Below are positions 4,310 to 55,912 of a stretch of 64,000 nt of DNA, one piece after another. Numbering within the stretch: the first letter of the stretch is position 1; each line of letters opens with the position of its first letter. Position numbers and translations under genes: made by a program. Origin of the DNA: Fimbriimonas ginsengisoli Gsoil 348 (GTDB taxonomy: Bacteria > Armatimonadota > Fimbriimonadia > Fimbriimonadales > Fimbriimonadaceae); the NCBI RefSeq assembly GCF_000724625.1, contig NZ_CP007139.1, forward strand, positions 4,712,001 to 4,776,000, in the 5' to 3' direction. The notes under the pieces are model-generated. The model did not search any database, was not told where the DNA came from, and saw nothing but the letters and a program-made list of their open reading frames with translations.

Positions 4310-5335
4310 TCAGAATCGCTTCGGCAGCTTGTCCAGCGTCACCATAAGCGGGTCGTTTGCAACTTGCCTCACCCAATCGGGCGGATTGTCCTTCCCGGGC
4401 GCCCACCAGGGGAGGCAATACAACCAGCGCGGACCTTTCGACGCCATCACCGCCGGGCTTGGGACCGTGTCGCACTCGCATAGCGCCAACATCTTGTCCG
4501 GCGCGACCTGGCGCATCGTGTCGTAGTAATTCTGGTACGCATCCGTGCGGTAATCCTGCCCCGCTTGGTTGCTGTAGATGTCGACTCCCGCGATGTCCAC
4601 GTAATCTGATCCTGGATAGAAACGCTTCCGGAACGCGACCGGATCTTTTTGCACCCCAGCGCTGTACACCCAAATCAGGTTGTGGAATCCGCGCTTCTTC
4701 ACGAAGTAGTCGAAGATGAGGCGAAAGAGCGCCGCCGTGTTCTCCGGTTTCTGCCGGTCGGTCCACCAAAACCAACCGCCGTCGATCTCGTGCAAGGGTC
4801 GGAAGAGGATCGGTACATGGCCGTCCGCCAACGGCTGCATCGCGTCCGCCGTCCGGCGCAGATCTTCCATCGCCGCCCGATTCTCATCCGTACCTGGCGT
4901 TACGAGCCGGCCGACGTCGACGTGCGGCGCCGTCTTCGGCTGCCCAACCCAAGCGGTTCCGTCGGGAGCGAGCGGGTTCCCCCAGTGGTACTGCATCGTG
5001 ACGAACCCATGCCGTTCGCGCCACCATCGGCCCGCATCTTTGACGTAGCTCGCCACAACGGAACGGTACGAGTCTCCCCAGTGGGGTGGATTCCAACCGT
5101 AAACGTCGATGCTAAGCATCGCCGGATACTTCCCCGCCACCTTATACATCGCCTCCGCGTTGGGCCAGTCGCCAATCCCAACCCCGGTGTTGGTGCTCTG
5201 CCCGTAGATCACCTTCTTCCCGTAGATCGATTGGAGGTAGGCCATGACCCCACGCGCCTCCTTCTGCAGCCGAGGATCCGCGCTTTTCTGAGTCGGCGGA
5301 GCCAGCATAACGGCGGCTAAGAGTCCCATGAACAT
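4310..5335 (-). CDS. Glycoside hydrolase family 26-like (beta-mannanase type)
   Basis: 341 residues with a short hydrophobic N-terminus (MFMGLLAAVMLAPP), so probably exported. The GH26 TIM-barrel signature RPLHEIDGGWFWW is at 179-191, with the acid/base Glu183. VDIAGVDIYS at 247-255 and ALCECDTVPSP near 284-294 follow, where Glu288 is the likely nucleophile. YGQSTNT and TMQYHWGNP are further family segments. GH26 enzymes cut beta-1,4-mannan or related glucans; which one is not shown by sequence. An AraC regulator follows. Confidence 0.85.
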   Translation of the reverse strand: MFMGLLAAVMLAPPTQKSADPRLQKEARGVMAYLQSIYGKKVIYGQSTNTGVGIGDWPNAEAMYKVAGKYPAMLSIDVYGWNPPHWGDSYRSVVASYVKDAGRWWRERHGFVTMQYHWGNPLAPDGTAWVGQPKTAPHVDVGRLVTPGTDENRAAMEDLRRTADAMQPLADGHVPILFRPLHEIDGGWFWWTDRQKPENTAALFRLIFDYFVKKRGFHNLIWVYSAGVQKDPVAFRKRFYPGSDYVDIAGVDIYSNQAGQDYRTDAYQNYYDTMRQVAPDKMLALCECDTVPSPAVMASKGPRWLYCLPWWAPGKDNPPDWVRQVANDPLMVTLDKLPKRF

Positions 5336-52982: not shown

Positions 52983-53017
52983 TCTCGGCGTGGCATCGGC
53001 TTCCTGCCCATGCGTCT

Positions 53018-53141
53018 CACGACCATCCCGGTCGTGTAAACGTAGCATCGGCTCCCAGCCGATGAACCCCGCGACCATCCTGGTCGTGGGAAAAGGGCCA
53101 GGGGCAGGATGCCCCTGGGACCCACTGGCAAGATGCCAGTG
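53018..53141. repeat. Cluster of five short palindromes with 3-5-base loops
   Basis: CACGACC-ATCCC-GGTCGTG (53018-53036), CATCGGCT-CCC-AGCCGATG (53046-53064), CGACCA-TCC-TGGTCG (53072-53086), GGGGCA-GGA-TGCCCC (53101-53115) and CACTGGCA-AGA-TGCCAGTG (53123-53141) follow each other in the gap after the 51711 gene. They share loop size, not sequence, and include copies of phrases such as GCATCTTGCCAGTG. They end just before the stop codon of the 53145 gene. Confidence 0.85.
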
Positions 53142-53144
53142 CCA

Positions 53145-53351
53145 CTAGCTGAGGCTAAGGATTACCGGACCATCCGAGGCGTCGACTCGCATGATCGGCA
53201 AGTCGACGGTTTCCCATGCGGCAAGGTCGCTGGCGTCGACCCTGAGGTTCCCGCCCAGCCGCTCGATCGCGGTCACGAGGAGCATGTACTGGCCCCGGTT
53301 CATCGTGTTGAGGAGACCGGCGATCATCTGGTCGGCAGAGTCGGGCGTCAT
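53145..53351 (-). CDS. Small protein after the HtrA-like gene
   Basis: 68 residues (MTPDSADQMIAGLLNTMNRG, then RVDASDLAAWETVDLPIMRV), no signal peptide or membrane segment. It lies 36 bases downstream of the HtrA-like gene on the same strand and is probably the last gene of the sigma-factor operon. No family recognised; its role is unknown. Confidence 0.6.
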   Translation of the reverse strand: MTPDSADQMIAGLLNTMNRGQYMLLVTAIERLGGNLRVDASDLAAWETVDLPIMRVDASDGPVILSLS

Positions 53352-53387
53352 CTTGCCCTAATCATGCCCCAGGAAAAGCGCCAAGGG

Positions 53388-54428
53388 CTACGGAAGCGTC
53401 TCGTCTTCCGCTCGGCCCACCACCGCATCGCGGATCTGGACGATGTTGCCGCGCGAAGTGCGGATCGCGATCTTTGCCCCCACCCGCTGGTTGAGCATGA
53501 CCCGGGCAAAGGTGACCTGGTCGCGAATCGTCTGCCCCGCAATGTCCTGGATGATATCGCCGACGCGGATTCCTGCCCGATCGGCCGAGGAACCCGGAGC
53601 AACAAACTCCACGATCGCCCCGCCGCCGATGTTGTCCTTACAGATCAGCCCGAGCGAGGGAAGATTGACCTTGTGGTCGGGCGACAAAAACCCGTTGATG
53701 ACCTGCCGAACCACTTCGCTGCCAACCGTATAAGCGACGGTCAGCTCGCCCGGCCCATATGTGCTCTGCTGAGCCAAGCCCGGCAAACCGCGCAGTACCG
53801 GTGGGATCTTTTCCTGAGAAACAAACGCTTGTTGGCCCAAACCCTGTTGAGTCTGGTTCTCCTGCCGCCGTAGCGTCGCGTTGAGTGAGCCGACGATCTC
53901 GCCGTCCTCGCACACGACCAACGCCGCGCCGATCAATTCGGCCGGCGCCTCGAAGCGGAATTCCGTGAGCGGCACGAACCGACGAGCCTTACCGATGACC
54001 CCGTAGTGCCGCGTCGAAACGCACTGCGCCCGGATCGGCCCAGTTCCCAAGATAGCCAACAGCGTGACGCCCGGTTGCTCGGGGGCGTTGGGGGCGACGA
54101 ACGGCCGGGCCTGCCCGGCAACCCAGGGCGCCGCTTGTAGCAGCACGAGGCCGGTTGAGCCGTCGCGCGCCAGCACGGTCATCTGAACATTGCGACCCGA
54201 TTTCAGACGCGCCGTCATCGACTCCCCGCGAACGGCGGCCCGAGAGGCCACAAACAGTCCGGAGTCGCTGATAAGCGCTGCCGCGCCAAGCGGGCGGTCT
54301 TCATCAACCAGCGTGGCGATCGACGGCTCCATCTTTCGCCAAATCGCCTGCTCCCTTCCGGTGAGACGGCCGATCTGGAGATCGTTACGGATCAGTGCGA
54401 CGCCGAGGCTAACCACCGATAAGAACAT
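53388..54428 (-). CDS. HtrA/DegS-like PDZ protein with no catalytic triad
   Basis: 346 residues. A short N-terminal hydrophobic anchor (MFLSVVSLGVALI) is followed by an S1C trypsin-like domain (about 35-185) and a PDZ domain (about 240-340: GGAIVEFVAPGSSADRAGIR, VGDIIQDIAGQTIRDQ). The three active-site positions are lost. At the His site (VTNNHVV in DegP) it reads FVASRAAV, at the Asp site DGSTGLVLL, and at the GNSGG site PAELIGAAL. A pseudoprotease is inferred; only its binding fold may work. It overlaps the anti-sigma gene by 20 bases. Confidence 0.8.
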   Translation of the reverse strand: MFLSVVSLGVALIRNDLQIGRLTGREQAIWRKMEPSIATLVDEDRPLGAAALISDSGLFVASRAAVRGESMTARLKSGRNVQMTVLARDGSTGLVLLQAAPWVAGQARPFVAPNAPEQPGVTLLAILGTGPIRAQCVSTRHYGVIGKARRFVPLTEFRFEAPAELIGAALVVCEDGEIVGSLNATLRRQENQTQQGLGQQAFVSQEKIPPVLRGLPGLAQQSTYGPGELTVAYTVGSEVVRQVINGFLSPDHKVNLPSLGLICKDNIGGGAIVEFVAPGSSADRAGIRVGDIIQDIAGQTIRDQVTFARVMLNQRVGAKIAIRTSRGNIVQIRDAVVGRAEDETLP

Positions 54429-55209
54429 TACTGGCTGTACCGACCTCCGTCGCGGTAGGAGCGCCCGTGGAGGCGTCCGGGTTCATGTCGATCAAGACGA
54501 TCGGGGTCGAAGCACTCGCTGGGTCCGCCGGCTTATTGGTTGCCGCCGCGGGGACTCGCGACGGAGCCGAGGTGTTGCCCACCAACGCGACGGGCCCGTC
54601 CTCTTTATTGTTGTCCTTCCACCCGTCCACCCTCAGCGGAATCGCGTCCGACGTGAAGTGGGGCGAGTGATACCGCCGCCGACGATTCGACGCAAAAATT
54701 GGCTTAAGCGGTTCCGGTTTCTTCGTCACCGCAACCGGAGCCGCCGAAATCTTCGGGGCGGTTTCGTTCTTCGCCACCATCGTACTCGACGCACTTCCCA
54801 TCGGATTGCTGTCGAAGCCGAGATTGCGGCTCGCGACGCTGCTGGGGGAAAGCACGACCTGCGGCTCGCCCGAATTCGCCCGGGGCCGAAGCATCATGAG
54901 GCCGAAGCCGAGCGACAGCGCCGCCACCGGCATCCAGATCCAGCCCGCGCCAAGCCCTTTCGGCTCCTCTCGCTTCGCCTCGGGGCGAAGCCCACGCGCA
55001 AGGATGGCGTCGCGAAGCCGCTCGTTGGAAAGCTGATGGTCCGGAACCTCCGCCAGGCCGCGCAGCCCTTCGCGCATATCGCGGAACTCCGCGAGGGCGC
55101 GTCGGGCCGCCGGGTCGCTTCCGATCTGGGCCTCGACCTGCGACGACTCCTCGGAGCTCATATCCCCGAATGCCAGTCTCGCCAGCTTCTCTTCAAACTT
55201 GCCGTTCAT
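54409..55209 (-). CDS. Anti-sigma factor (membrane-anchored, RseA-like)
   Basis: 266 residues from ATG 55209. The N-terminal cytosolic part (FEEKLARLAFGDMSSEESSQ, AALAEF-like helices) is the short sigma-binding domain; no HCC zinc motif is seen. One membrane segment (IWMPVAALSLGFGLMML) at about 100-117, then a Pro/Ser-rich periplasmic tail of about 150 residues. Its start overlaps the sigma gene stop by 4 bases (ATGA), so the pair is coupled. Likely to hold the sigma factor inactive until cleaved or released. Confidence 0.82.
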   Translation of the reverse strand: MNGKFEEKLARLAFGDMSSEESSQVEAQIGSDPAARRALAEFRDMREGLRGLAEVPDHQLSNERLRDAILARGLRPEAKREEPKGLGAGWIWMPVAALSLGFGLMMLRPRANSGEPQVVLSPSSVASRNLGFDSNPMGSASSTMVAKNETAPKISAAPVAVTKKPEPLKPIFASNRRRRYHSPHFTSDAIPLRVDGWKDNNKEDGPVALVGNTSAPSRVPAAATNKPADPASASTPIVLIDMNPDASTGAPTATEVGTASNVLIGG

Positions 55210-55829
55210 TTGTTTTCCTCGCCCAAAAGTGGGGCGATTCGATCTCTCAGCGCGCGTCTGGCGCGCAACACTCTCAACTTTGCTCCCCCAACCGTGCATC
55301 CCAGAATCGATGCGATATCCGGATACTCCCTCTCTTCGATGTCGCGCAGGACGATCACGGAGCGGTGATGGACCGGAAGGGCGTTCAGTGCGCTCCGTAG
55401 AGCTTTCTTACGCCGCTCCGCCTCCAAGTTCTGCACCGGATCCTCGGTATCGCCGATCGTCATCCAATCGAGCGCGCCCATCGCCTCTTGCTGCTCCAGC
55501 GCGGTGCGCCGTTGCGACATGCGGGCTTGGTCGGTGCAGAGGTTCGTCACGATCCGCAAGAGCCACGTGGTGAACTTCGCTTCGTCGCGATAGCGGTGCA
55601 GATTTTGATAGGCGCGCACGAACGCCTCTTGGACGATGTCTTCCGCATCGTCGCGCCGCGATGTCATTTGGTAGGCGAAACGGTACACCAGGGATCGGTG
55701 CCGCTCGAACAACTGTTCGAACGCCCCAAAGTCCCCATCTCTCGCTCGAGTAACCAGAGCGACGTCGGTGTCTAAATCCATGCGCCCTGTAACGGACGCA
55801 TCAAACCGCATCACGGTGCTTTCTACCAT
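55206..55829 (-). CDS. ECF sigma factor
   Basis: 207 residues (an internal ATG at 55781 is also possible). Region 2: VTRARDGDFGAFEQLFERHR, DAEDIVQEAFVRAYQNLHRY with KFTTWLLRIVTNLC, and region 4: HHRSVIVLRDIEEREYPDIA and GGAKLRVLRARRALRDR. It directs RNA polymerase to envelope- or stress-type promoters. It starts a four-gene operon with an anti-sigma, an HtrA-like protein and a small protein. Confidence 0.95.
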   Translation of the reverse strand: MVESTVMRFDASVTGRMDLDTDVALVTRARDGDFGAFEQLFERHRSLVYRFAYQMTSRRDDAEDIVQEAFVRAYQNLHRYRDEAKFTTWLLRIVTNLCTDQARMSQRRTALEQQEAMGALDWMTIGDTEDPVQNLEAERRKKALRSALNALPVHHRSVIVLRDIEEREYPDIASILGCTVGGAKLRVLRARRALRDRIAPLLGEENK

Positions 55830-55912
55830 GTTTTCGTATCTGACGTGGCAAAAAGTGGGGAGTTACGGTTTCGGACCCAGTGGTCCCGCATAAGGGTGAC
55901 CCGCAACAAAAA

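Follow-up and report, generated by a model that had tools for sequence, protein, structure and literature searches.

A three-gene operon on the minus strand of the Fimbriimonas ginsengisoli Gsoil 348 genome raises the question of what an HtrA-like protein can contribute to the control of an extracytoplasmic function (ECF) sigma factor when it lacks the residues with which its relatives cut. In Escherichia coli, the PDZ domain of DegS senses the C termini of outer-membrane proteins, while RseB shields the anti-sigma factor RseA (PMC8103513), and in Pseudomonas aeruginosa, the PDZ domain of AlgW senses C termini in the AlgU-MucA-MucB system (PMC8545111). The F. ginsengisoli genome has been described as 5.23 Mb in size with 30 rpoE-type sigma genes (PMC4072686); the assembly used here is a single contig of 5,231,762 bases. 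We analyzed one stretch of it, a window of 64,000 nucleotides, to which all coordinates below refer unless a contig or another locus is named.

The operon codes, in order, for an ECF sigma factor (55206..55829), a membrane anti-sigma factor (54409..55209), and a secreted protein combining a trypsin-like fold with one PDZ domain (53388..54428), here called the pseudo-HtrA, with each gene overlapping the next head to tail. The start of the anti-sigma gene, placed at 55299 in the initial annotation, had to be corrected to 55209, where it overlaps the sigma stop codon. On the basis of a codon listing and of the overlap lengths in 72 loci, the anti-sigma and pseudo-HtrA genes share 20 nt (54409..54428), in which one frame encodes the C-terminal tail of the anti-sigma factor and the other the beginning of the HtrA signal sequence, which is hydrophobic there and lacks the basic residues normally present. 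The initial annotation had also counted a small protein of 68 aa (53145..53351, likewise on the minus strand) as a fourth member of the operon. Because homologue searches found it in none of 30 relatives and at none of the homologous loci, we rule it out as part of the conserved unit; its sole homologue is a paralogue in the same genome (G000:C1:4313412-4313600; 44% identity, 2.7e-13), and it appears to represent a lineage-specific family of small proteins. Directly downstream of the operon (window positions 53000-53150) lie the GC-rich inverted repeats cggctcccagccg and ggggcaggatgcccc, which resemble a terminator or a repeat element.

Pfam detects only the PDZ domain in the product of the third gene, so the trypsin-like part had to be established by other means. 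An AlphaFold model built with 64 sequences (mean pLDDT 89.5, pTM 0.84) had MucD, DegS, DegQ, and DegP as its best Foldseek matches, and VIA-align superimposed it on the Mycobacterium tuberculosis HtrA Rv1223 (Z 22.1, rmsd 3.9, 270 residues), MucD (Z 22.0), and DegS (Z 21.6); a profile of the family, in turn, matched a DegP-like chain at 4e-43. Profile and fold thus bear out the original description of an HtrA/DegS-like PDZ protein and assign it to the HtrA/Deg family, with a trypsin-like domain followed by a PDZ domain. The HtrA fold covers residues 23-343, and the protein is not a member of the RseB family. Nor does it qualify as an HtrA serine protease, which is defined by the His-Asp-Ser triad. 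In the profile alignment to an S-to-A mutant of DegP, the segments glfvahrsav, DevTqLalL, and qalgGA stand opposite GYVVTNNHVV, DPRSDIALI, and GNAGGA, respectively, placing Ala64 at the position of the catalytic His, Gly93 at that of the Asp, and Gly167 (or Ile166) at that of the Ser.

The proposed loss of all three catalytic residues is therefore upheld by the alignment. Across the order, a complete triad is absent from all 75 orthologues, and no His was seen at the catalytic position in a listing of these sequences. Partial triads do occur, with the Asp present in seven of the eight members of family f5 and the Ser in three members of f2 and a few others. Intact catalytic residues elsewhere in the protein were also looked for in the structure and profile alignments, and none were found. 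A shifted His in column 62 (35/75) was rejected as a catalytic residue, as it is two residues off and lacks the accompanying Asp and Ser. Given the absent catalytic residues, a DegS-type role as site-1 protease can be excluded by inference, the absence of cleavage being itself inferred. The carboxylate-binding loop of the PDZ domain (hydrophobic-Gly-hydrophobic; SLGL with Gly260 in the window's protein) is preserved, and its Gly is kept in effectively all members. Pfam still labels several of the dead homologues Trypsin_2. The genome encodes a third Trypsin_2 protein, away from the operon (L003; G000:C1:281348-281743), that has TTSDVL in place of TNNHVV, and hence no His, while keeping GSSGAP; it is a candidate for another pseudoprotease.

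A survey of relatives, as the initial annotation had proposed, recovered the three-gene order in 72 loci, where the sigma and anti-sigma genes overlap by 4 nt in 50 and the anti-sigma and HtrA genes by 20 nt in 46 and by 23 nt in 13. In a phylum-wide search at a threshold of E<=1e-50, we counted a pseudo-HtrA in 100 of the 113 genomes of the order; those without a match are mostly incomplete. Seven genomes, including two of 1.5 Mb rated 97% complete, lack the anti-sigma factor and the pseudo-HtrA jointly, and the distribution as a whole shows the three genes, as far as gene content can tell, to be inherited and lost together. In the relatives, the operon adjoins dtd and relA-type genes and a convergent recJ-nusG-secE-greA block (names read from the sequences). 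The surroundings in the window differ and the three genes are still together; therefore, the unit consists of these three.

The sigma/anti-sigma/dead-HtrA order is also found in the Armatimonadota families f8 and f12, whose HtrAs have Asp or Glu in place of the His and Asn in place of the Asp and keep the Ser, and across Candidatus Zixiibacteriota (loci L170 and L172 and relatives of that genome). By our count at E<1e-58, 37 of 61 Zixiibacteriota genomes have a homologue; among the ones read, loss of the His is accompanied by loss of the Ser or the Asp. Active proteases at the same position in relatives would have refuted the idea of a noncatalytic component, but there were none among those read in the order, f8, f12, and Zixiibacteriota. 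Intact HtrAs adjoining a related ECF sigma factor were met only in other phyla, namely, Actinomycetota (L203 and L204) and Deferribacterota (L207). In a tree of 46 sequences, one branch (96/95) parts all dead from all active HtrAs, which is consistent with a single origin of the dead forms, though the long branches and the open root call for caution. The presence of the unit in two other Armatimonadota families and in Zixiibacteriota indicates that, to judge from this phyletic spread, it is ancient and not a product of decay.

The first gene fits its original assignment as an ECF sigma factor (Pfam Sigma70_r2, 1.5e-21; r4_2, 3.8e-12), having regions 2 and 4 only, and its product is 46-86% identical across the order. 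Its true start is probably an internal ATG at 55811 rather than 55829, since a start at the latter position would leave just 13 nt to the -10 element. That element belongs to an ECF-type promoter, GTAAC-N16-CGTC (55842..55866, minus strand), whose motif is conserved: of 59 orthologous loci, 56 have AAC-N16-CGTC ahead of the sigma gene, whereas shuffles gave 4.1. The base two before the AAC is G, and the one following it A or T, in 65/65 sites, neither having been used in site selection. On the basis of this motif and its conservation before the operon, we infer that the operon is autoregulated, with the promoter predicted to be read by its own sigma factor. A promoter of the AAC-N16-CGTC type was not seen in Zixiibacteriota.

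Across the whole genome, CGWAAC-N16-CGTC has 32 matches, compared with 22 for the reversed pattern. Copies of CGTAAC-N16-CGTC lie 39 nt before the gene for a tricorn/TolB-like protein (L331) and 36 nt before that for a secreted protein (L326); neither is conserved (0/16 and 1/9 relatives, respectively). A wider regulon is thus not established, and as the candidate motifs are not conserved in relatives, we claim no target beyond the operon. An identical promoter-like string of 26 bases, CGTAACTGCCATGCTGACTTGACGTC, occurs at two distant sites outside long open reading frames (L314 and L320; G000:C1:874566-874591 and 2217468-2217493), and the copies are probably part of a repeated element.

The second gene product likewise proved to be the membrane anti-sigma factor it had been taken for. 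It matches the NCBIfam antisigma profile at 1.9e-6, which is below the curated cutoff, and its AlphaFold model comprises cytoplasmic helices (residues 3-72), a transmembrane helix (89-106), a disordered linker (about 110-230), and a C-terminal β-hairpin (237-256; pLDDT 86-89) followed by the tail SNVLIGG. The helical N-terminal domain, the transmembrane helix, and the position beside a sigma gene place it among the membrane anti-sigma factors; binding of the sigma factor itself is inferred. It is not a zinc-binding anti-sigma factor (ZAS; H-x3-C-x2-C), there being no zf-HC2 domain in the window's protein; this domain is present in the anti-sigma factors of f12 and Zixiibacteriota.

Conservation in the anti-sigma factor rises toward its C terminus, from about 1.1-1.5 bits per column in the linker to about 1.6-1.8 over residues 231-260 and 2.6 in the last six; this C-terminal region comprises about 34 conserved residues that lie outside the gene overlap, plus the terminal 6. 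In f1 and f5 the tail reads (P)IVLI....D..TGA..A.EV....(N/D)V(L/V)(I/V)GG; elsewhere it ends in AIICSF (f2), DSAY (f12), or AGAVE (f8, mostly AVE or GVE), and in Zixiibacteriota it takes the form RPVIRVY........Y. Terminal Tyr or Phe is found in 25 of 28 nonredundant Zixiibacteriota anti-sigma factors (binomial p 2e-25 against a background of 7.5%), in contrast to 2 of 35 controls, which are predicted membrane anti-sigma factors beside related sigma factors with no HtrA neighbor (Fisher 4e-12). These p values overstate the independence of the sequences, which share ancestry. Within the order, the last anti-sigma codons overlap the start of the HtrA gene, and conservation there could serve two frames. 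An artefact of this overlap is nevertheless rejected as the sole cause, because f8, f12, and most Zixiibacteriota have little or no overlap and retain the conserved tail.

A sensing pocket that is kept, scissors that are lost, and a partner with a tail resembling a PDZ ligand together make a holder of the anti-sigma factor the simplest reading. We infer with good support, in the absence of direct binding data, that the PDZ domain of the pseudo-HtrA binds this tail, and the dead cleft possibly holds the strand preceding it. Against tail binding, the Gly-Gly end in the window's family and the Glu end in f8 depart from the aromatic or hydrophobic ends that HtrA PDZ domains usually bind, and an anti-sigma factor at L190 ends in Tyr though no HtrA gene adjoins it. 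This protein (4536-5258, in a metagenome-assembled genome labeled Ignavibacterium) is Zixiibacteriota-like and terminates in EAGQTY. The initial annotation had offered a scaffold, inhibitor, or decoy as the role of the PDZ protein; to this can now be added a proposed partner, the conserved anti-sigma tail, while the choice of role is not settled.

We consider the best explanation, with a probability of roughly 0.55, to be an autoregulated envelope-stress circuit in which the catalytically dead HtrA grips the tail of the anti-sigma factor and so acts both as a cap, in the manner of RseB, and as a sensor. By its sequence, the anti-sigma factor spans the inner membrane and presents its conserved strand and tail at the tip of the long disordered periplasmic linker. 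In the resting cell, the pseudo-HtrA might cap the anti-sigma factor and, by analogy with RseB on RseA, protect it against cleavage at site 1. Envelope proteins that misfold and expose their C termini might then compete for the PDZ pocket, and the freed anti-sigma factor might be cut by other proteases. Candidates in the genome are two intact HtrAs encoded elsewhere, one of which could be the site-1 protease (an identity that is only inferred), followed by an RseP homologue (TIGR00054 equivalog; 170 bits, cutoff 147.6). The released sigma factor might finally boost its own operon and so reset the brake. These steps, like the direction of control, are weakly inferred. In such a circuit, one protein would combine a DegS-like sensing pocket with the shielding function of RseB, and cleavage would be the task of other enzymes.

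The same evidence for tail binding would serve equally a pseudo-HtrA that, once it binds misfolded proteins, either hands the anti-sigma factor over to another protease that cuts at site 1 or turns that protease on. MamO, an HtrA pseudoprotease that activates MamE-dependent proteolysis (PMC4794232), is a precedent for this, and the two intact HtrAs and RseP could supply the cutting; but no active protease is co-encoded, the downstream genes in relatives being housekeeping ones (recJ, nusG, secE, and greA), and we regard this alternative as unlikely, though a serious one. Were it true, deletion of the pseudo-HtrA would silence the response instead of derepressing it.

Two further readings were weighed. 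HtrAs such as DegP can act as chaperones without cutting, and a gene in an autoregulated operon could simply code for a sigma-induced periplasmic chaperone that binds misfolded C termini and not the anti-sigma factor. This seems improbable to us, as it explains neither the conserved tail, above all the contrast in terminal Tyr/Phe between Zixiibacteriota and the controls, nor the joint loss of the anti-sigma factor and the pseudo-HtrA. Alternatively, a different PDZ protease might use the tail as its ligand or recognition tag, with the pseudo-HtrA as a decoy competing for this tail; the proteases in question, intact HtrAs and RseP, are present in the genome with their PDZ domains. A decoy would have to be abundant, and the tight linkage of tail and pseudo-HtrA in genomes and gene order speaks against it, leaving it with very little to recommend it.

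The circuit comes close to the E. coli sigmaE-RseA-RseB/DegS/RseP and P. aeruginosa AlgU-MucA-MucB/AlgW systems. Like them, it has an ECF sigma factor with a membrane anti-sigma factor and, besides an RseP homologue, an HtrA protein bearing a PDZ domain; also shared are the autoregulated operon and the use of a PDZ domain as a sensor of C termini. DegS and AlgW, however, are active proteases whose PDZ domains bind the C termini of outer-membrane proteins or MucE (PMC8103513, PMC8545111), whereas the HtrA of the Fimbriimonas operon is dead. Unlike in those systems, the anti-sigma factor itself bears the ligand-like tail, and the operon has no RseB gene. The likeness of the pseudo-HtrA to RseB/MucB is confined to its proposed part as a periplasmic partner shielding the anti-sigma factor; those proteins have an unrelated fold and sense lipids. 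In gene order, the closest parallels are the actinobacterial loci L203 and L204 and the M. tuberculosis cluster, which we take to be sigE-rseA-htrA (Rv1223, the best fold match), all with an ECF sigma factor followed by an anti-sigma factor and an HtrA; the HtrAs of L203 and L204 differ in having an intact His-Asp-Ser triad. MamO and the degenerate MamE copies of magnetotactic bacteria are also HtrA pseudoproteases with noncatalytic roles, but these lie in magnetosome formation and metal binding, with no tie to a sigma factor (PMC4794232).

No report of an ECF-linked pseudo-HtrA was found in the open-access literature, subscription papers being outside the scope of the search; within that scope, the unit is a variant of the known sigma/anti-sigma/HtrA circuit that has not been described. 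More broadly, and at what we judge to be even odds, it may typify an ancient and distinct class of envelope-stress systems in Armatimonadota and Zixiibacteriota, in which a dedicated C-terminal ligand of the anti-sigma factor is clamped by a co-encoded pseudo-HtrA, a family that cuts the brake having been turned into its holder. HtrAs beside sigma factors are routinely taken as site-1 proteases, and this multiphylum family, which would be assigned by profile libraries to the serine endoproteases without having the residues to cut, gives reason to reexamine such annotations near ECF sigma factors. In it, nature would have uncoupled sensing by a PDZ domain from proteolysis in the control of a sigma factor, and the predicted pairing of peptide and PDZ domain is directly testable.
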